64,000 bases of DNA. It comes from Planctomycetia bacterium (GTDB lineage Bacteria; Planctomycetota; Brocadiia; Brocadiales; Brocadiaceae). Under the pieces are notes generated by a model, which was given only the letters and a program-made list of their open reading frames with translations, searched no databases and was not told where the DNA came from. The position numbers and the translations under genes were made by a program. The number at the start of each line of letters is the position of its first letter. The stretch's first letter is position 1. Shown piece after piece: positions 52,689 through 63,999 of this stretch. Where the stretch lies: the NCBI GenBank assembly GCA_015075005.1, contig JABTVC010000002.1:1470259-1534258 (forward strand). Direction: 5' to 3'.

Positions 52689-53820
52689 ATGAGGATAAAA
52701 TAACCCTCTCGGCAGGTAAATCCGGCATCATCGACTTCAACTACCAACACAGATACAGGCTATTATCTATGATTCCTATACAGGTCAAACCCTGACTATG
52801 CACACTGGCTTCATCAGCAGGGCTTCGTTTATAAAATGACAAGCGATTCAAGTTCTTTGTCTTTTCTGGTATACTATTCAACGGCCCGATCAAAATTATC
52901 CGTTCGAACAAAACAAACCATTCAAATACTGTAGCTAACCAAGATAACCTGCAAGCATCTCGCCTCCTTGTAAAGGAGGGGAGGTTAATATCTCATAAAA
53001 TTCAACGGGATCCCGAACAGCTATCAAACAATTTTGGCAGCTCAAATGGATTCTCATTCAAATCTTCCCAGGGCAGCCCCTTTACCCTCTCCTTTCAGAT
53101 CGCATCCCCGGTTGATAAATTCATTCAGTACGTAATTGAGGGTATATTCCATGAAGGAAACGAGATAGTCCTTGGACGGCAAAAACTCAATATCCATCGG
53201 ATAGAAACCCTCCCGGATCCTTTAAGCAGCTTAAACGGTTTAAACGGTTTAAACGGTTTAAACGGCTTAAACGGCTTAAACGGCTTAAACGGCTTAAACG
53301 GCTTAAACGGCTTAAACGGCTTAAACGGCTTAAACGGCTTAAACGGCTTAAACGGCTTAAACGGCTTAAACGGCCCAAACAGCAAACAGCTTGAACGGCG
53401 AACGGTTTGAACGGCTTTACCAGCTTAAACGGCTTATTATTGAAACCCTTAGAATCCCCATCTTTATCAAAAGCCCATGCCTCCAGGTCAACAAGACATC
53501 TACCTGTTTCCGGGAGACGAAGGTTACGAAGAGCTCCTGAATCAAAACCTTATGCATAAGTACGAGACGCTCTACGGCAAACCTTTTGAAGGTGAACCGT
53601 TGAAATTCAGTTTCCACGATATCAAAGGAAAATCCGTGAAGCAATTTACCGTCTTCAGGAAAGGATTGGACGGCAGTACAAAGCCTGTTAACATAAAGGG
53701 ACACTGCAACCATTTACCGTAACTGGCCCAGGAGAATTGATCAGTATCGGCCTGGAATGCGGCTTTGGACAGAACAACAGTATGGGATGTGGGTATGTAG
53801 AAGTTAACAGAGATGGATAG
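52689..53820 (+). pseudogene. cas6: cas6 crRNA endonuclease, interrupted by a 9-bp repeat tract
   Basis: Conserved Cas6 parts in order across several frames: MRIK, then GIIDFNYQHRYRLLSMI, YRSNPDYAHWLHQQGFVYK, KRFKFFVFSGILF (all N-terminal), SPFTLSFQIASPVDKFIQYV, then FHEGNEIVLGRQKLNIHRIE. After PDP (about 53220) the frame runs straight into a Gly-Leu-Asn repeat at 53228. The second half resumes with ETLRIPIFIKSP, LNQNLMHKYETLYGKPFEGE and a Gly-rich C-terminus (GPGELISIGLECGFGQNNSM), the classic Cas6 ending. Cas6 would cut pre-crRNA. At least four indels, so it is not translatable as one protein. Confidence 0.85.
53228..53380. repeat. nonamer tract 1, inside cas6 (17 units)
   Basis: Seventeen contiguous 9-bp units: one AGCTTAAAC, three GGTTTAAAC, twelve identical GGCTTAAAC (53264-53371), and one GGCCCAAAC. 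Degenerate units continue to about 53434. In the cas6 frame each unit reads Gly-Leu-Asn; the minus strand is also open, as Pro-Phe-Lys and Arg-Leu-Ser repeats. The 9-bp length keeps the frame regardless of copy number. The tract separates the two ferredoxin-like halves of Cas6. Confidence 0.95.
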
Positions 53821-53890: not shown

Positions 53891-53953
53891 CGGTTTAAAC
53901 GGTTTCATCAGATCAAGCGGTTTAAACTGCTTAAACCATTTTTAACCGGCTTA
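53891..53953. repeat. nonamer tract 2, short
   Basis: Five or more units in 9-bp phase, such as GGTTTAAAC, GGTTTCATC, GGTTTAAAC and TGCTTAAAC, partly diverged. It lies between cas6 and the four-helix-bundle gene, ending about 7 bp before that gene's GAAAGGAGG site. Confidence 0.8.
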
Positions 53954-53974: not shown

Positions 53975-54404
53975 ATGTACTTCGAAGACCTTGAAGTTTG
54001 GAAGTCAGTAAGAGAACTAACAAACAAGATTTACGGGATTACAAAAGACGGTACCTTCTCAAAAGACTACGGTCTCAGAGACCAGATCCGGCGTGCATCT
54101 GTCTCCATCATGTCTAACATAGCCGAAGGCTATGAAAGGCGGCAACCAGGAACTCATCCAGTTTTTATCAATTGCTAAAGGTTCTTGTGGTGAGGTACGA
54201 TGCCAGTTGTATATAGCAGGAGATCAGAACTATATTGACCAGAATGAATTAAAACCCCTCATTGAACAATGCAAGCGTATCTCAATAATGATTAATAACT
54301 TCATGGAGCATCTGAAAGGCAGCAGGTACAAAGGATCAAAGTACAAGATGCCGGAGCGAAAGAGCGTGAAAGAGACACTGGATGAAATCGCCAGAAGAAA
54401 ATGA
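53975..54404 (+). pseudogene. four-helix-bundle (S23/bAvd-like) protein, one frameshift
   Basis: Starts [20 protein letters not shown] with a GAAAGGAGG site. The frame breaks near 54140 with one extra base (GGCGGC); corrected, it reads [20 protein letters not shown], then GSCGEVRCQLYIAGD, the signature of the 23S rRNA intervening-sequence protein family (four-helix bundle, related to the Avd accessory protein of diversity-generating retroelements). The family is linked to intervening rRNA sequences and to nucleic-acid binding; its role outside these settings is unknown. It lies inside the cas locus between two nonamer tracts. Confidence 0.8.
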
Positions 54405-54414
54405 ATGCAAAGAA

Positions 54415-54768
54415 CGACGAAACCGGTGAAACCGTTCAAACAGCTTGAACGGTTTCACCGGTTTGAACTATTTGATCGGTTTCGCCGGCTTAAACGGTTT
54501 GAACGGCTGATCAGTTTTCCCGGTTTAAACGGCTTAAACCGTTTCGCCTGTTTGATCGGCTTGAACAGTTTCCTCGGTTTAAACAGTTTGAACTGCTTTT
54601 TCTGCTTGAACGGCTTAAACGGCTTGATCGGTTTTTCCGTCTTAAACGGCTTAAACTGTTTCGGCTGTTTGATCGGCTTGAACGGTTTCCTCGGTTTAAA
54701 CAGTTTGAACTGCTTTTTCTGTTTGAACGGCTTAAACGGTTTTATCTGTTTGAACGTTTATTTTAACC
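54415..54768. repeat. nonamer tract 3, about 39 diverged units
   Basis: Continuous 9-bp phase with consensus NGYTTNNNC: GGCTTAAAC, GGTTTGAAC, TGTTTGATC, AGTTTCCTC, TGCTTTTTC and so on. A higher-order repeat is visible: the block beginning TGTTTGATCGGCTTGAAC at 54549 recurs at 54666, a shift of 117 bp (13 units). The plus strand stays open throughout (GLNGLNRFACLIGLN). It abuts the ribosome-binding site of a short cas8-like start. Confidence 0.9.
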
Positions 54769-54778
54769 GGAGGTAATC

Positions 54779-54835
54779 ATGCCATTATTCAACTGGACAG
54801 GGAATCCGTGTGTGGATGCGGGGAAGGGATTATAA
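54779..54835 (+). pseudogene. 18-codon cas8-like start
   Basis: ATG with an excellent CCGGAGG site, reading MPLFNWTGNPCVDAGKGL and then a stop. WTGNPxVDAG is the N-terminal motif I associate with Cas8 proteins of the Cst1/type I-B kind. The rest of cas8 is missing; cas10d begins 5 bp after the stop. It suggests that a I-B effector gene was replaced after its first codons. Based on a short motif only. Confidence 0.4.
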
Positions 54836-54839
54836 AACT

Positions 54840-57764
54840 ATGATACATGCAAAAATTAGAGGTTATTTTAATTCAGAGCTTTTTAATACAGTTACTGGAG
54901 AATATTTTAAGAGTTTCCTTGATGAATTTATTAAGCAATATGTACTGGTTAGTGCGAAAGGTTCGAGTGGACGTCAGTTTCAAACAGGAAGTAGCATATT
55001 TGACAAAGTTGTAAATCAATACGATATGCCTTATCACATTCATATTATCAATGGGTTATTGCCTGCTCTAAAACTGCTTGAGGAGAGATTTAAAAAGGAA
55101 GGGTGGCTTGAGCAGAAAGAAGCACCGTTATTCCTGCGCTGTTTTGTCATTGGATTCACATTGCATGATGTTAATAAGCTGACTGGCATTGATGAATTAA
55201 ATGAGAGCGTCGAGCAGTCTCTTGTTTCACTATGTGAAGGACTAAAACTTGAACGGTTTTTCCCTGAATGGAGATATTGGATTGAAGAAATTAAATTTCT
55301 TGCTCTTGGCACTGAATACCGAACAAAAATCTTTGCTCACCAAAAAACTATACAGGAACAAGATTTTTTCAATACAGTATTGGCTGAACATTGCCATCTT
55401 GCCGATTCCATAGCTTCGATAGATAGCTTTTCCTCTGTTGCCGACTTTTATGAACAACTATCTAAAAAGCAATTGAACGGCAAGGGGTTGAGTGATTTGT
55501 GGCAGCTTTCCTTCGTAGAAGTTCAAGAGAATCTTTTTACACTCCTTTCTCAGAAACTATTGCTTGCTGCAAAATCTCTTATTGGGGATGAACGGCAGCA
55601 GACAATTTTATTTAGTTTAAGAAATGGTTTTGTATTTATCGGACAACCCTTGACTACAACTGAAATTAATAAAATAAAGATTGATTTCAAAAGCGACCTG
55701 TCTGATGTTGTAAAGTCCTCACTACTCGACTTTCAAGCATGCAAATTCGGTTTTTTAGAAAGCCTCAGCGAAGAAGATGACTCAGAAAATAAGTACCATG
55801 AGCAGATAAGAAATTCCCTTGAAAAAATACTGAGAGCTGGCTTTGCTAATAACGGGTCTGGAAGCGAGAAGATTAAACCGTTTTCAATAACCAATTATGC
55901 AGCACCTCTTTCAGAAGAAAGCAGCAAACCAAAAGCGGAAGAGGAAATAAAAAGCCTTGAAAAGTTGATTGATGAAAATGAGTTGCCTTTGACGGTCTTT
56001 CCTCAAAAGGCAAAGGATGGAACTGTTCTGAATTACTTTTTGCGGTTTAGTAAAGAATGGGAGGAGGTCAGCGAATCAGACAGGAAATTTCTGACTCTTT
56101 ATGTCTTAGAAAAAATGAAAATACTTTCGTCAAAGATTTTTGCTAAATGGAAACCCAAAGACTCTTATCCTGAATATTCAACTGCAACAGAACGATCTGT
56201 TATAGCTTTAATGAATGTTAACAAGCTATGCAATGTGGCGGAAATTGACGGCAAAACCATTAATGATACTTTAGAAACCGCTTGGAGTGAGATTATTAGA
56301 ACACTGGCGACATCATCACTTGTTAAAACTGTGGATACACAGGAGCTTGATGACTTTGCTGACTTTTATATTTCAGGCAACTTTGCGCGTGACATTGAAA
56401 AAATAGTCGGCCTTATTGAAGAAATTCCTGAAAAAGCTGATATGTGCCTTTTTACTGGGCGTAAAGCAATGACAAAATATGGTGCAGAAAGGGCTTTTGG
56501 AATCTCTGCTCTCAACTTTAGTAATAGGTCTATAAATACATTAAAAAGTAAGGATAATCAAATATCTTCACTTTTTTTTCAAGAAAATGAATTGCGCTTA
56601 AAAGAATTACCACGGGGGTTCTATACGAAAAAACTTAAACCAGAAGATAAAAATAAGTTTGAAAGGCAGATGTTTTTGAATGCCTCCGATGCAAACGCTG
56701 CAATCTATTATGATTTCGGAGAATATTTTGTTGATGTCTCAAGTTGCCAGTTGCTGGATGTCCTGAGTAAAGCATTTTCGTACGACTGTCGGGATGTAAA
56801 CGGCTTGACGCTTATTTTTGATAGCCTTGCATACGATTTTAACCTTTACGGAATGAATTTCAATCGTATCGGCGAGGACGTGGAGTCCAATTTTTACTTC
56901 ATTCACCAGATGCTTAAGCTGATACAAAAAACAGGCTTCAGGATTTTTGTGTCAGGTATATTGACGCCATACCATTCTCATAAGGAGATGTTTGTCTTTG
57001 AGAACTGTCTGCCCTTTGCAAAAAGGCTTGGATGGGACAGGATTCGGATTGACCAGATTGAAAGCAGATTGCAGGAGATGAATCTTCTTTTATCGCTTAA
57101 TAAAAAGAGATTAGTCAGTAATGTCTTAAATTATGCAGAAGACAGGCAATCTATATTTACGGCTTTTGCGTTGCTGGATGATGACAATAAGGCAAAGGCA
57201 CGAAACGCTATGCTTAAATTTATAAATTTAAACAAGGAGGTGTTAAAAATGAGTGTAATGAATGAACTGGCACAGATTGCCATTGAAATGGTAAGGCCAA
57301 AGTCAGGCAGTACTTCTCAGGAAAGCTGGATAATCCGGGATGCCCTGAAGGTGCTGAAAGACTGCCATAAGGAGGGAAGGGATAAAGAAACGGCAATAGA
57401 GCAAATTGCCGGAGATTTAAGAAAAACCCTGAAAAGCAGGGATGGTGCCGTCCTGTCAAAATGCGAGCCTTTTGCAAAAGCCCTTTATGAACGGTTGTTT
57501 GAGCAGGAATGGAAAAAACATTTTCCCCAGCCGGGAAGGCTTCGCAATTGGGTAAACCAATTTGCCTTTCTTTATTCTGATAAAGGATATATGGAAAGCA
57601 GGAAATCAAAAATTAAAGGCATTATAAAGAAGCTGAAGGAGGAGGGGAAAGACATTTCAGAAGACACCGTGATCCAGCTTCTTGTTGCTGAAAATAAAAA
57701 TCTTGAGAAATATGCAGGTGATTACCGTGAAGTATTTCAGGCAGTAGTTTCGGAAATTAAATAA
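54840..57764 (+). CDS. cas10d: Cas10d (Csc3), type I-D large subunit with HD domain
   Basis: 974 residues from the ATG at 54840, 8 bp after GGGAAGGGA (the frame extends to 54810). N-terminal HD nuclease: His near 65 (HIHIINGLLP), HD pair in GFTLHDVNKLTG near 110, and EHCHLADSIAS near 180. The large remainder has a diverged palm-like domain and a helical C-terminus (VMNELAQIAIEMV). In type I-D the HD nuclease sits on Cas10d and the helicase on a separate Cas3', as seen here. It is the target-binding large subunit of the effector complex. The frame is complete. Confidence 0.85.
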   Translation: MIHAKIRGYFNSELFNTVTGEYFKSFLDEFIKQYVLVSAKGSSGRQFQTGSSIFDKVVNQYDMPYHIHIINGLLPALKLLEERFKKEGWLEQKEAPLFLRCFVIGFTLHDVNKLTGIDELNESVEQSLVSLCEGLKLERFFPEWRYWIEEIKFLALGTEYRTKIFAHQKTIQEQDFFNTVLAEHCHLADSIASIDSFSSVADFYEQLSKKQLNGKGLSDLWQLSFVEVQENLFTLLSQKLLLAAKSLIGDERQQTILFSLRNGFVFIGQPLTTTEINKIKIDFKSDLSDVVKSSLLDFQACKFGFLESLSEEDDSENKYHEQIRNSLEKILRAGFANNGSGSEKIKPFSITNYAAPLSEESSKPKAEEEIKSLEKLIDENELPLTVFPQKAKDGTVLNYFLRFSKEWEEVSESDRKFLTLYVLEKMKILSSKIFAKWKPKDSYPEYSTATERSVIALMNVNKLCNVAEIDGKTINDTLETAWSEIIRTLATSSLVKTVDTQELDDFADFYISGNFARDIEKIVGLIEEIPEKADMCLFTGRKAMTKYGAERAFGISALNFSNRSINTLKSKDNQISSLFFQENELRLKELPRGFYTKKLKPEDKNKFERQMFLNASDANAAIYYDFGEYFVDVSSCQLLDVLSKAFSYDCRDVNGLTLIFDSLAYDFNLYGMNFNRIGEDVESNFYFIHQMLKLIQKTGFRIFVSGILTPYHSHKEMFVFENCLPFAKRLGWDRIRIDQIESRLQEMNLLLSLNKKRLVSNVLNYAEDRQSIFTAFALLDDDNKAKARNAMLKFINLNKEVLKMSVMNELAQIAIEMVRPKSGSTSQESWIIRDALKVLKDCHKEGRDKETAIEQIAGDLRKTLKSRDGAVLSKCEPFAKALYERLFEQEWKKHFPQPGRLRNWVNQFAFLYSDKGYMESRKSKIKGIIKKLKEEGKDISEDTVIQLLVAENKNLEKYAGDYREVFQAVVSEIK

Positions 57765-57787: not shown

Positions 57788-58837
57788 ATGGCAGCAATTA
57801 AAGAACTTTATAAGTTTATTGACGAGAAATGGTTTGTGAGTGATTTAAAGGAAAACCATATTGGGCATCTTAAACTTGCCTTGGTCAGAGAGGTTGTGAA
57901 CCCCCTCATTATCAGAAGCACCGACATGGAGGCGACAATCACATTGGTAACCGCTGACGGACGGGAGCTTGTTGAAATCCCTCCGAGGAAGTTAAAGAGC
58001 AGGGAAAAACTACTTGGCCTGATGCTGTGCAGAGAATTCGGGGTTGTAGATGAAAAAGTCCGTTACAATGTATTTGATGGTGCCGAGATGTTGAATAATC
58101 CAAACTCTGCACTTTTTGGAGATACATCCACGAAATCTGGTGATACGGCGGGGCTTACGAGCAGGGCAATTTACGACTGGGCATATTCGCTAAGAGACGT
58201 AAAAGATATAACCGAGAAGCTGCAACACAATGCCTTAAGCGAAGCGGGGACGATGATTGATGAAGCGACTGGTGAAATGCGGCAAAGCCTTTATTCAACG
58301 GAATATATATTGCCGGGAACTCTCTTCCCTCATTTTATAACCGTTGATAACATTACCCCTGAACTTTTTATTCATCTTCTTTCCAGTGTTCTTAACCAAC
58401 ACCGTTATGGAGCACAAACAACTACAAACGCCAACAATATGATAAACCATCTAGTTGCTATTGGTTTTGCAGATTTTGAGAAACCGATTAACAGCTACAC
58501 AATTTCAAAGGCATGGAATGCAGATACAAAAAAAGATGTGCCAACATTGGACTCCGTAAACACATTTGTCAATGAGCAAATGAAAAACCACTACACTGAA
58601 GATGGCTTGGTAAAAAACCTCGCTGATATCGTGAAATGGGTTGATGGTCTTTGGAAAGAAAATGATAAACCTTTGCTTAAAGAGATTTATACTGCTGCCC
58701 AAACAGGTGTTGATACATATTTGAAGAAAATCAAAATGGTTAAAGAATCTTCGGGTGATAAGAAGCAGAAAGGGGCAAAAAAGGTAAAAGAAACAAAAGC
58801 GGGGGGCGCCAATGAAAATACAACCCCTGAGAGTTAA
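57788..58837 (+). CDS. csc2: Csc2 (Cas7d), type I-D backbone protein
   Basis: 349 residues, with AGAGGAGG before the ATG. RAMP-fold backbone subunit that binds the crRNA spacer in multiple copies. Csc2-typical parts: LALVREVVNPLIIRSTDMEA, LCREFGVVDEKVRYN, GLTSRAIYDWAYSLRD, and YILPGTLFPHFITVDNITPE, with RYGAQTTTNANN near 215. A Lys/Gly/Ala-rich tail overlaps csc1 by 26 bp. Twenty-three bp follow cas10d. Confidence 0.9.
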   Translation: MAAIKELYKFIDEKWFVSDLKENHIGHLKLALVREVVNPLIIRSTDMEATITLVTADGRELVEIPPRKLKSREKLLGLMLCREFGVVDEKVRYNVFDGAEMLNNPNSALFGDTSTKSGDTAGLTSRAIYDWAYSLRDVKDITEKLQHNALSEAGTMIDEATGEMRQSLYSTEYILPGTLFPHFITVDNITPELFIHLLSSVLNQHRYGAQTTTNANNMINHLVAIGFADFEKPINSYTISKAWNADTKKDVPTLDSVNTFVNEQMKNHYTEDGLVKNLADIVKWVDGLWKENDKPLLKEIYTAAQTGVDTYLKKIKMVKESSGDKKQKGAKKVKETKAGGANENTTPES

Positions 58838-59468
58838 ACTTCTCTCACCCATGTTTAATTATTGCAGGGTAACCACTGGCGGCGCCATAACAAGCGACTT
58901 TATCGGCGATATTGCCTTAACCTATGCAATTAACAGGGTTAGGAAAGACAGGAATTTTTACGAGGAGTTCCGAAGAAAACCGTATTATGAGGAATTGAGA
59001 GGACTTGATTATTATGTTAGCATGGGAAAGCCTGTCAAGTATGAGATGACAGGGATATATACCAGAAATACTCTTTTTAATGTGGATGGTTTTCCTGATA
59101 TGTCCATCATTGGTAAAGAGGGACTTGCAAGAAAAGGACTGTTTAAAAACTATTTCAAGGTGCAGGGGATTCAACCGGAGGGGGAGTTTTCTACCTGTCT
59201 GATCTGTAAAGACTCATTCACCCTTGATTTACCCTTTACAATCCGTTTAGGAACAGGCAGGGAATGTATGGCAATCCTTGATAGGGATGACAAATTTGAT
59301 GGCAATCTTTGGCTGAATGCTTTTACCCTAAAAACAGTGTTTGGTAATTTGCAGACAACTATTAAATCACTTAAGTCATATTTGTTTGAATATAAACTTG
59401 AAAACTACATCCTGATGAAAAACATTTCTACAGAACAGGTCAGAGTGATTTTTGACGGCATATTCTAA
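58812..59468 (+). CDS. csc1: Csc1 (Cas5d-like), type I-D subunit
   Basis: 218 residues overlapping csc2 by 26 bp. Csc1 is the Cas5-type RAMP protein that caps the 5' end of the crRNA. It starts MKIQPLRVKLLSPMFNYCRV, with TTGGAITSDFIGDIALTYAI and FIRLGTGRECMA-type segments; a CLICKD pair of cysteines is near 128. Complete. The TAATG overlap with cas3' suggests translational coupling. Confidence 0.88.
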   Translation: MKIQPLRVKLLSPMFNYCRVTTGGAITSDFIGDIALTYAINRVRKDRNFYEEFRRKPYYEELRGLDYYVSMGKPVKYEMTGIYTRNTLFNVDGFPDMSIIGKEGLARKGLFKNYFKVQGIQPEGEFSTCLICKDSFTLDLPFTIRLGTGRECMAILDRDDKFDGNLWLNAFTLKTVFGNLQTTIKSLKSYLFEYKLENYILMKNISTEQVRVIFDGIF

Positions 59469-61382
59469 TGACGGATAGCGTTTCTCTAAAAATATTGCCC
59501 CAGTTTGTGGATACAGTGGACGAGCAGTTTGAAGGTCGCCGTTTGCACAAAATCCAGCAGGCGCTTTTGAACTATGAAGATATACCTGAATTCACAGTAA
59601 TAAGCGCCAAAAACAGGAAATGGAAGTTTTGCCTTCCCGCTTCCTATAATCCAACACAAAACATCAGGCAGTTCTTTTAGTAAACGCAGGTGCATCATTG
59701 TATCTCCGACAAATGCCTTGATTGATGATATGGAAAAAGAATACGCCAAAGCTTTTCCATCGCTTCAGATTAGCAAGCTTAACAGAAAGAAGCTGGATGA
59801 CCTCAACGCAAAAGGTCCTGATAGATGGAATGCCCTTATTCAGGTAATCACAGACAACGAAATTATTATCACTAATCCTGATTTGCTCAATTTTGCCCTC
59901 TTTGGCGGTTATTACAGGCACAAAGGGCAAAAAGAGATAAGCGAAATCTTTGCCAGAATAGACTACTTTGTATTTGATGAATATCATTTGTATGATGAAG
60001 AGCAGATTGCCAATATAATTTCATGGATTGCAGTAAAAAAGGCTCTGATTGCAAAGCCGGTTAAATTTATTTTTGCCTCAGCAACCCCTGAAAAAGGATT
60101 GCTTGAAATATTACGAACCCAAGGCTTTAATCCTGCTGATATCATAGAATTCATATCTGACAAGGCAACTTCATCGAGCCGGAAAATTCATGGTCAAATA
60201 GAGGTCACATTTTTGAAAGGTGCTACGCCACTTCAATATCTCATCTCGAATGCTGAAACCATTAAACAGTGGATTAAAGACGGAGAAAGAATATTAGTTG
60301 TATTCGATAGAATGACGGAACTCCGAATGGCAAAACCAGAGATAGAAAAGCAATTTCATGATGTGGTAATCGCAGAAGTATCCGTCTACTATACAAAATC
60401 TGAAATCAAGGAAGCGCCTGGCAATGCCGGCTTGATACTTGGCACTAATAAAATCGAGGTTGGTGTCAATCTGGATGTGTCCATTTGTCTTATGCAGACA
60501 GGCAAATACTTTGCTAACTTTATCCAACGATTCGGGCGCATCGCAAGACAGGGAAAAGACGGCAAGGCAATAATTTTTCTTGATAACAAAATAAAGGAAA
60601 TAGAAAAGGCGTTTACTGGGAAAGAAACACTGTCATATTATGACTTTATCGAACAATGTCGAAATATTGAGCTTTTGTCAGACCGAAAATTTTATTCTGA
60701 AAAAATTCCACAGTATCTTGGGGCATATTATTTTATCATTGCCACAAATATAAAAGACTATGCGACACAGAAACTATTTAGAGAGACCGTTAATATTGAT
60801 GGTCAAGCAGGATTTATGCTGGGTTTAATGAGAAAAATAGATAAAGGAATTAGGCGCCTTGAATATATAAATTCTGCCTGTGGAAAGAAATTTAATATTG
60901 ACATTGAAAACTGGAAAGAATGGTGGAAGATATTTACTGGAACCTTTAAATATTTCAGGGCTTCCATGCCAGATATCTTAGTTCGAGATTTAACCTGTAA
61001 TAAGGATAATCAGATTACTCGATACTCTTTAGAGTGGATATTGGAAAACAGAGAAATTGTAAGAGAGGAATCTATCAATGGTGAGCGATGCCTTGTGGTA
61101 TCAGGTTTTTTGGAAGGGAAGCAGGAGTTACAATACTATGTAGAATCGCTTCCTGTTTATAAATTGAACGAAGGGAATCTTTATTTGCAACAGAAAGAGA
61201 AGTATTCTCTGAAAGAAGCCTTCGAAAAACGGCTTGTAGAGATTGCGAAAATGTATAAAGGGCAAAACCAGTTTGTATTGGCTGCAAGACAATTAATTGG
61301 TGAAGTTGAAAAATTGAAGCCTATAGTTACCCATAAGCGCTTATTTGTTTCTGATGTTCAGTGTTATTCAAATTTTTTGTGA
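59468..61382 (+). pseudogene. cas3': Cas3' helicase, frameshifted at Walker A
   Basis: Superfamily 2 helicase without an HD domain, as in type I-D. The first frame stops at 59680; the second opens from about 59600. The text at 59613-59650 reads SAKNRKWKF in the first frame and PKTGNGSFAFPLPI in the other; a working Walker A would need TGNGKS, so both a frameshift and the loss of the Lys codon are seen at motif I. The rest is intact: CIIVSPTNALIDD, DEYHLYDEEQ, FASATPEK, and QRFGRIARQGKDG. It would unwind DNA for the Cas10d nuclease. As read, ATP binding is lost. Confidence 0.8.
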
Positions 61383-62299: not shown

Positions 62300-62804
62300 A
62301 TGAACACTACAGAACAAACATCTATCCGCTTGCAGCACTTAGATTAACTATTACTTCCACAATTAGAAGAAGCTCTGGTATTTTACTAAAAATATTGAAA
62401 TGGAGCACAACAGCGATGATGGTCTACCTCAGTAAGCTGATCCACGAGACATCATTACGAACAGGAGAATAAGGAGATTGAGATTGATGGCTGATCAAGA
62501 TTGATTTCATCAACAAGGACAGGGTCATCCAAATATGAAGAAGTCGGACAAAGGTGGAAGAGCCGCATATCAGCCGAAAAGTATTACCTCTGGTATCTGA
62601 AACAGAAGGGCGTAGAAGGTATTACCGGTAAAATTAATTATCAAAGCTCAGAAAGACCCTGGACGTGTTTTGGAGCAGGAGATGATGAGAAGATTCATGC
62701 AATAGTAAACGACATCAAAGTGCTTGTGGAAGCCGAATTACCTCCGCCGATACAAAGGATGAAGATGTGCAAGAATTGCAGTTATAGGGATATACTGGGT
62801 GTAA
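62300..62804 (+). pseudogene. cas4: cas4 exonuclease, decayed
   Basis: Pieces in three frames: INYYF and LWYFTKNIEMEHN near 62350-62400, VYLSKLIHETSLRT, KEIEIDG and IDFINKDRV, and KYYLWYLKQKGVEGITGKIN, then GDDEKIHAIVNDIKVLVEAE, LPPPIQRMKMCKNCSY. Length matches Cas4 (about 168 codons). Conserved positions are damaged by substitution as well as indels: the first iron-sulfur Cys codon (before the KKLW block) is AAT followed by TAG, and the last Cys, expected before Trp, reads TAC. Cas4 trims prespacers during adaptation. Cannot be functional. Confidence 0.8.
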
Positions 62805-62817
62805 TAAAGAACAATCT

Positions 62818-63036
62818 AAGCCGATTAAGCCGTTCAAACTATTTAAACCGATATAGTTTTCGGCTAACGGTTGAAACGACCTTCTTGAAATTGAAACTGC
62901 TTGAACAGTTGAAACTGCTGTGAACAGTTGAAACTACTTGAACATTGAAGGAAACTTGAACAGCTGAAACTGCTTAAACGGTTGAAACTGCTTAAACGGT
63001 TGAAACTGCTTAAACGGCTTAAACTATTTTTAAACC
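62818..63036. repeat. nonamer tract 4, between cas4 and cas1
   Basis: Diverged units such as GGTTGAAAC, TGCTTAAAC and GGCTTAAAC, clearest at 62960-63025, where an 18-bp unit (TGCTTAAACGGTTGAAAC) is repeated. Upstream parts (62820-62900) are more degenerate. It fills the whole gap between the cas4 stop and the cas1 ATG and has the same orientation as tracts 1-3. Confidence 0.85.
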
Positions 63037-63037
63037 T

Positions 63038-63999
63038 ATGAAACAGAACTATTACATCTTTAACAACGGCCGCCTGAAACGACAGGAAAATACCATCTTC
63101 TTTGAAAAGGAAGACGGTTCTAAGGTCATAATACCATTGAGAACACAGAAGCCCTCTATGCCTTCGGTGAGATTGACTTCAATGAAACTCTTTAATTATC
63201 TTGACAGAAAGGCATACCAGTGCATGTATTCAACTACTATGGTTATTATTCCGGTAGCTACTATCCATGGGAATAGCAAACTCCAGGTTGGTGAAGCAGG
63301 TGAACCACTATACGAGCCGTCAGAGAATTATCCTGCAGGGGCGTTTATTGAAACAGCAGTTTCAATATCTGAAGAACCTGAGATATATGGCAACAGGGAA
63401 GGAGTGGATGAATATATCAGCACGATTGAAGGTTTCAGGTCACAAGTCGAAAAAACAGAGGTCGTGGAGAGTTGATGGGAATAGAAGCGAAACATCCAAA
63501 ATACGTATTACAAATTTACCATTATTGACCAGGAGATAGCATTTGAACGCAGGGTGAAGCAGCCTCCGGACAATGCCGGTTAACCTGCAATCTCATATCT
63601 AAACTCGATGGTCTATACGACATGTCTGGGTGAGAAATATACCATACAAGATTAAATCCCTGATCTCTTATCTCCATGAACCGGGCGAACAGGTTTTCCT
63701 GAGCCTCGACCTGGCGGAGGTTTTAAGCCTATTTTCAGCGACAGAACCATATTTACGATACTGAACCGGCAGCAGATTAAAAGGATTTTATGACAGAGGT
63801 TAATTGCTGTTATCTTAACAGAAGGAGAAAGACAGTTATAAAAAGAATATGATATGAGAAGAAAGACAATTATCAGCCATAATGAAAACTGAGAGACAGG
63901 TCTCTTACCGGTATCTTATAAAGATTGGAATATTACAAATTGGTCAAACACCTGATTGGCGAGCAAAGTGAAATCCGTCGATTGAAGATCTGGTGGTGA
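63038..63999 (+). pseudogene. cas1: cas1 integrase, decayed but full length
   Basis: All parts of Cas1 are present in shifting frames: MKQNYYIFNNGRLKRQENTI, ENTEALYAFGEIDFNETL, HVFNYYGYYSGSYYPWE, LVKQVNHYTSRQRI, then KNLRYMATGKEW and GIEAKH (Glu, 63484), YLHEPGE (His, 63675), SLDLAEVF (second acidic position, about 63700), DRTIFTILNRQQIK, CCYLNRRRK, VSYRYLIK, and the KIWW ending with a TGA stop at 63997. The catalytic codons survive but at least seven indels or stops separate them. Cas1 integrates spacers with Cas2, which would lie just beyond the window. Confidence 0.85.

Follow-up and report, generated by a model that had tools for sequence, protein, structure and literature searches.

A nine-base-pair repeat carried in frame by cas6 genes of Brocadiaceae: a probable tolerated linker of variable length

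The common picture of Cas6 is of a compact, conserved enzyme. The genome studied here is of Brocadia type, its nearest named relative being Candidatus Brocadia sp. BIN37. In the window, the whole 64,000-nucleotide stretch of this Brocadiaceae genome, a cas6 gene carries an in-frame tract of 9-bp units between its two domains, and intact cas6 genes of other Brocadiaceae carry such a tract at the same site. Judging from sequence comparison, the tract probably belongs to a 9-bp minisatellite family of Brocadiales, RGYTTRAAC, and would be a linker seeded from nearby arrays, safe for the reading frame, tolerated by Cas6, and kept soft by selection.

The tract occupies the inter-domain site B of the gene (53228-53380, plus strand, as are all genes of the window described below). 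It consists of AGCTTAAAC, 15 copies of GGYTTAAAC, and GGCCCAAAC, read as SLN-(GLN)15-GPN with the upstream Cas6 frame maintained. The first-pass annotation had counted 17 Gly-Leu-Asn units entering the frame without a shift; the frame stands, and the count becomes 15 GLN units, with an SLN before them and a GPN after. Toward its 3′ end (53381-53439) the tract becomes degenerate, and units of 7 bp there shift the frame. TRF reported an array of period 9 at 53229-53436, with 23.6 copies and 88% matches, and a 9-mer scanner delimited an array at 53219-53439 with a score of 315; run on six Markov resamples of 64 kb each, generated from the window, the scanner returned zero arrays, even at its lowest threshold. 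The span first given for the repeat, 53041-53434, covers a real tract, but its start falls inside cas6, which extends from ~52689 to ~53820.

The N-terminal part of the gene (52689-52920) runs from the start codon to loop A, a second variable site (52921-53052) that is occupied here by the interspersed repeat CCTCCTTGTAAAGGAGGGGAGGTT and in relatives by GLN units. The remaining N-terminal domain (53053-53227) shares the frame of the tract and ends in ETLPDPLS, and the C-terminal domain (53440-53820) contains the glycine-rich motif GFGQNNSMGCG. Similarity to Cas6 on the left of the tract, which would have told against the first-pass reading had it proved spurious, amounts to 60% identity to an intact Cas6 across 187 aa (E 3e-57) and is joined by profile matches; on the right, identity reaches 83% (E 3e-44). 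Pieces of the window gene matched model positions 30-77 and 102-156 of TIGR01877, and matched PF01881 with E-values of 5e-8 and 9e-6. According to the description of the C-terminal motif GhGxxxxxGhG in PMC3936711, a Lys or Arg is expected among the x positions; the window motif fits the glycine pattern and lacks the Lys/Arg.

The tract had also been placed at a linker between the Cas6 halves, and domain boundaries agree. In the L055 protein, whose gene seemingly starts with GTG, the N-terminal domain PF21350 covers 14-129 and the C-terminal domain PF01881 covers 179-294, with the tract in between; in the alignment to the solved Cas6 5yi6, site B corresponds to the short link after the LPIP segment of 5yi6. 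AlphaFold2 on three rows gave a pLDDT of 32 and was set aside as evidence, so loop exposure is argued from domain boundaries and homology, by which sites A and B presumably lie at exposed junctions.

Compared with L041, the core of the window cas6 contains seven frame-breaking indels, all of them 1-nt deletions (four in the N-terminal part and three in the C-terminal domain) and nearly all in homopolymers, and two 7-bp units at the degenerate tract end add further frame shifts. No indel interrupts the csc2 alignment, and Cas10d and csc1 have open frames. In the CRISPR repeats just past the window end, the full alignment shows 38 bases deleted versus 6 inserted, concentrated mid-array; this array of ~106 repeats (L157:2213-8903) starts ~1 kb beyond the window, and its middle copies carry the deletion-biased variants. 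The deletion pattern shared by cas6 and the CRISPR repeats may possibly reflect local long-read consensus error. Because nearly all of the 1-nt deletions fall in homopolymers and the adjoining CRISPR array has the same deletion bias, the earlier statement that indels now break the gene is doubtful.

Cas6 relatives were searched in 75 genomes of the class, and the close ones were found in Brocadiaceae; none turned up when viral contigs were scanned. Eighteen relatives, read from DNA, are full-length or nearly so as open frames. The Cas6 of L041 scores 93 bits against TIGR01877 (cut-off 58.65) and 78 bits against PF01881. Ten of these 18 intact Cas6, all from other Brocadiaceae and some from closed genomes, have 5-12 in-phase units at site B, the number varying between species, where a unit is defined as lying within two mismatches of RGYTTRAAC. 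Most of the ten also hold units at the second loop. Every unit detected at sites A and B is in phase 0 (Gly-Leu-Asn), and L049 and L050, close relatives within one genus, differ at site B by one 9-bp unit, bearing out the proposal that unit change is harmless to the frame. Since intact tract-bearing cas6 occurs in at least six genera, the repeat is not limited to dead copies, and the view that the gene was once active with a variable linker gains support.

Among the 18 aligned proteins the Cas6 core is highly conserved. Four places account for all sizeable length variation: sites A (8-54 aa) and B (10-46 aa), the C-terminal tail, and, in two of the proteins, a smaller site C. Core dN/dS between tract-bearing genes is 0.06-0.15, by which measure the core is evolving under purifying selection. 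The tree requires two to four changes of tract state, with tract-free genes nested among tract-bearing ones. Loops A and B in L043, L046, and the window also host other interspersed repeats (the AAATCCGAAATC type and the CCTTGTAAAGGAGG type), in frame where the gene is intact. L038, the other Cas6-like gene of the window genome, was considered as a tract-free paralogue and rejected, as it belongs to the PF10040 family.

For nine species, we compared the cas6 units with those of the array downstream of the neighboring S23 gene (described below). In all nine, residues that are bulky or hydrophobic, the usual Leu position aside, were rarer inside cas6 (Wilcoxon p 0.002); p-values of this kind are overstated because units and species, sharing ancestry and duplication, are non-independent, and weight is placed on the 9/9 paired result alone, itself not fully independent. 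Leu was replaced by Ser in 30/132 cas6 units versus 3/171 intergenic units, and by Phe in 5/132 versus 24/171; changes of Asn to Ile, Lys, or Tyr numbered 2 in cas6 and 48 in intergenic units, and stops 0 and 7, respectively. The cas6 units thus lean toward small polar residues, as a soft linker would lead one to expect, and an older age of the intergenic arrays is insufficient on its own because the direction of change differs. Taken at the level of sequence, the intact relatives indicate that the Gly-Leu-Asn loops are translated and under selection.

Downstream of cas6 in the window lies an S23/23S_rRNA_IVP four-helix-bundle gene (53975-54404; PF05635, TIGR02436), frameshifted here and belonging to the clade that bears arrays. 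It is bracketed by 9-mer arrays at 53893-53937 (9-mer scanner) and 54416-54756 (TRF and scanner). PF05635 matched the window S23 pieces with 67 and 50 bits and the L041 S23 with 130 bits, over the cut-off. A type I-B cas8b1/cst1-like start relic (54779-54828, MPLFNWTGNP..) follows, for which L082 offers an intact start for comparison. Next come a 984-aa open type I-D Cas10d-like protein (54810-57764; 85% identical to the L041 protein), assigned by position and relatives, the family models giving no match; csc2 (cas7; 57788-58837) and csc1 (cas5; 58812-59468), both from profile search; and a type I-D cas3′ helicase with one 2-nt deletion (59468-61382). The C-terminal half of cas4 (62501-62923) runs into 9-mers, an array (62814-63036, TRF and scanner) lies between cas4 and cas1, and cas1 (63038-63475) keeps the Cas1 frame only for its first ~35 aa. 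Relics of the cas8b1/cst1-like start (MPLFNWTGNP) also occur at L041:3787 and 4683, after arrays and upstream of cas10d. The relics that follow arrays look as if effector operons had been swapped at arrays.

The same order, a cas6 of the tract group, then S23 with 9-mer arrays, then effectors of varied subtype, recurs at ten other Brocadiaceae loci, where the effectors are of type I-D (L041), I-B of the Csh2 type (L072), I-B of the Cst type (L082), or DevR/Csa2-like (L087, L073). Five more S23 genes of the array clade, from another family of the order, have arrays too. Arrays accompany 16/16 S23 genes of this clade (support 100/98) versus 0/14 other S23 relatives (p 7e-9). The S23 genes of the clade are found either flanked by cas6 and the effectors or next to nuo-like genes, as at L137 and L141, where cas6 is not in view, and not in a 23S rRNA gene. 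S23 has been reported in 23S rRNA intervening sequences (PMC4990558). Tracts are present in 10/11 cas6 adjoining S23 versus 1/8 other cas6. L043 has S23 and arrays adjacent, yet its site B has zero GLN units and its site A two weak ones, and L048 has a cas6 tract without S23. Among 392 genomes of the phylum, a 27-base pattern was confined to this order, and in 33 Brocadiaceae genomes a cas6-S23 locus contains or adjoins 9 of the ~24 strict arrays. RNA folding found arrays to be strongly structured, with z down to -9 beside S23, and some flanking arrays to lie above -2. Three generalizations were rejected: arrays do not adorn all S23 genes (six others in the window genome have none), arrays elsewhere in the genome are not always beside S23 (some lie far from any), and inverted arrays do not frame S23 as one hairpin, orientation being inconsistent between loci.

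The tract is not particular to the window cas6: its 9-mers recur at loop A of Cas6, within an effector gene and phage genes, and in the S23-tied intergenic arrays. The effector protein in L084 and L087 has LER-phase units at one position (L076 has a similar stretch), and GLN units occupy a different loop in the distant Cas6 of L150. In the G015 prophage, recognized by terminase and portal genes, arrays fill most gene gaps and in-frame units occur in two genes. In-frame capture recurs, and its main recipient in the examined loci is Cas6. The prophage (L100:3450-16081) has eleven 9-mer arrays in a tailed-phage cluster, those folded being strongly structured as RNA, and its in-frame arrays lie in a portal fusion gene and a protease-like gene. 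Separately, a dispersed intergenic element (L090, L093, L096, L102, L105, L106) has shared flanks enclosing a 9-mer array, GATCA-GGGG-GCAAAGT .. 9-mers .. CAGCCTTACTGC-GAAGATGTTTT, and a long array (L139:768-984, G048) lies between apparent nuoH and nuoI, names that rest on sequence resemblance.

The reading that we consider probable is as follows. Arrays of the 9-bp repeat, bracketing an S23 gene that separates cas6 from the CRISPR effectors, would have supplied units that spread into the cas6 frame, with the inter-domain linker (site B) and the N-terminal-domain loop (site A) as likely entry points. Slippage or unequal exchange would then add and remove units, slippage being the presumed engine. 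The frame survives such gain and loss because the unit equals three codons (Gly-Leu-Asn), and frame-safe unit change leads loop length to differ among species, the Cas6 core remaining conserved. The tract would be a flexible linker that Cas6 tolerates, not a functional part that has been tuned.

That it is, instead, an adaptive length-tunable linker, whose copy number sets inter-domain distance or flexibility and is selected, for example, when the effector subtype or CRISPR repeat changes, appears unlikely. Retention at one site by six or more genera, selection favoring soft residues in the cas6 units, and an effector operon behind cas6 that varies by species (I-D, I-B, DevR/Csa2-like) would fit this idea; yet tract-free close relatives (L051, L062-L064) keep a conserved Cas6, lengths vary without an evident pattern, and loops A and B take in unrelated repeats as well. 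A broader notion, that S23 together with its arrays constitutes an element of the CRISPR locus at the level of DNA or RNA and that the repeat doubles as an evolvable Cas6 linker tying Cas6 shape to effector swapping, is distinctly unlikely. We regard as improbable that arrays and S23 make up one functional element, a protein with its binding or processing sites, comparable to the intervening sequence of 23S rRNA that encodes S23 and is removed by RNase III, in which the cas6 tracts would be part of its working and not a by-product. The strict clade-level linkage across two families, the strong RNA structure next to S23, and the known occurrence of S23 in rRNA intervening sequences are compatible with such an element, but arrays also lie far from S23 and in genomes without the clade, and some flanking arrays are little structured. 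A late insertion of junk into a dead cas6 of the window genome only, for which the seven frame-breaking deletions might be cited, is extremely improbable and is refuted for the family by the intact, conserved tract-bearing genes of other species and genera, and the window deletions resemble consensus errors.

Several known systems come close to what is described here. Proteins of the Cas6 family (TIGR01877, PF01881/PF21350; nearest solved structure 5yi6) are alike in both domains, in the glycine-rich C-terminal motif, and in type I cas position, but solved relatives have a short linker whereas tract genes have variable in-frame loops, up to ~46 aa at B. Intragenic VNTRs or minisatellites with whole-codon units take similar frame-keeping steps in copy number; here the repeat sits inside a CRISPR RNA nuclease, and the family also makes intergenic arrays around one gene clade. 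A Rickettsia palindromic element is a ~100-bp palindrome, whereas the cas6 unit is 9 bp. Such elements and PARCELs (PMC2996958) are likewise repeat DNA entering open reading frames in frame, tolerated or co-opted, but the PARCEL is a 75-bp repeat encoding 25 amphipathic residues, whereas the unit here has 9 bp and three residues, and membrane proteins are not involved. A 2013 paper (PMC3936711) already described 23S_rRNA_IVP genes as neighbors of cas6 and cas4, a co-occurrence like the one seen here; the S23 passage of that paper makes no mention of 9-bp arrays around S23 or of in-frame copies in cas6, and the literature searched likewise contained no mention of 9-bp arrays or repeat tracts in Cas6.

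One bacterial family therefore offers a natural linker-length series in a guide-RNA nuclease, carried by intact genes and open to bench experiments. In-frame capture of a repeat can be traced there against intergenic copies of the same 9-bp repeat, and a strict tie of one S23 clade to 9-bp arrays is brought to light.
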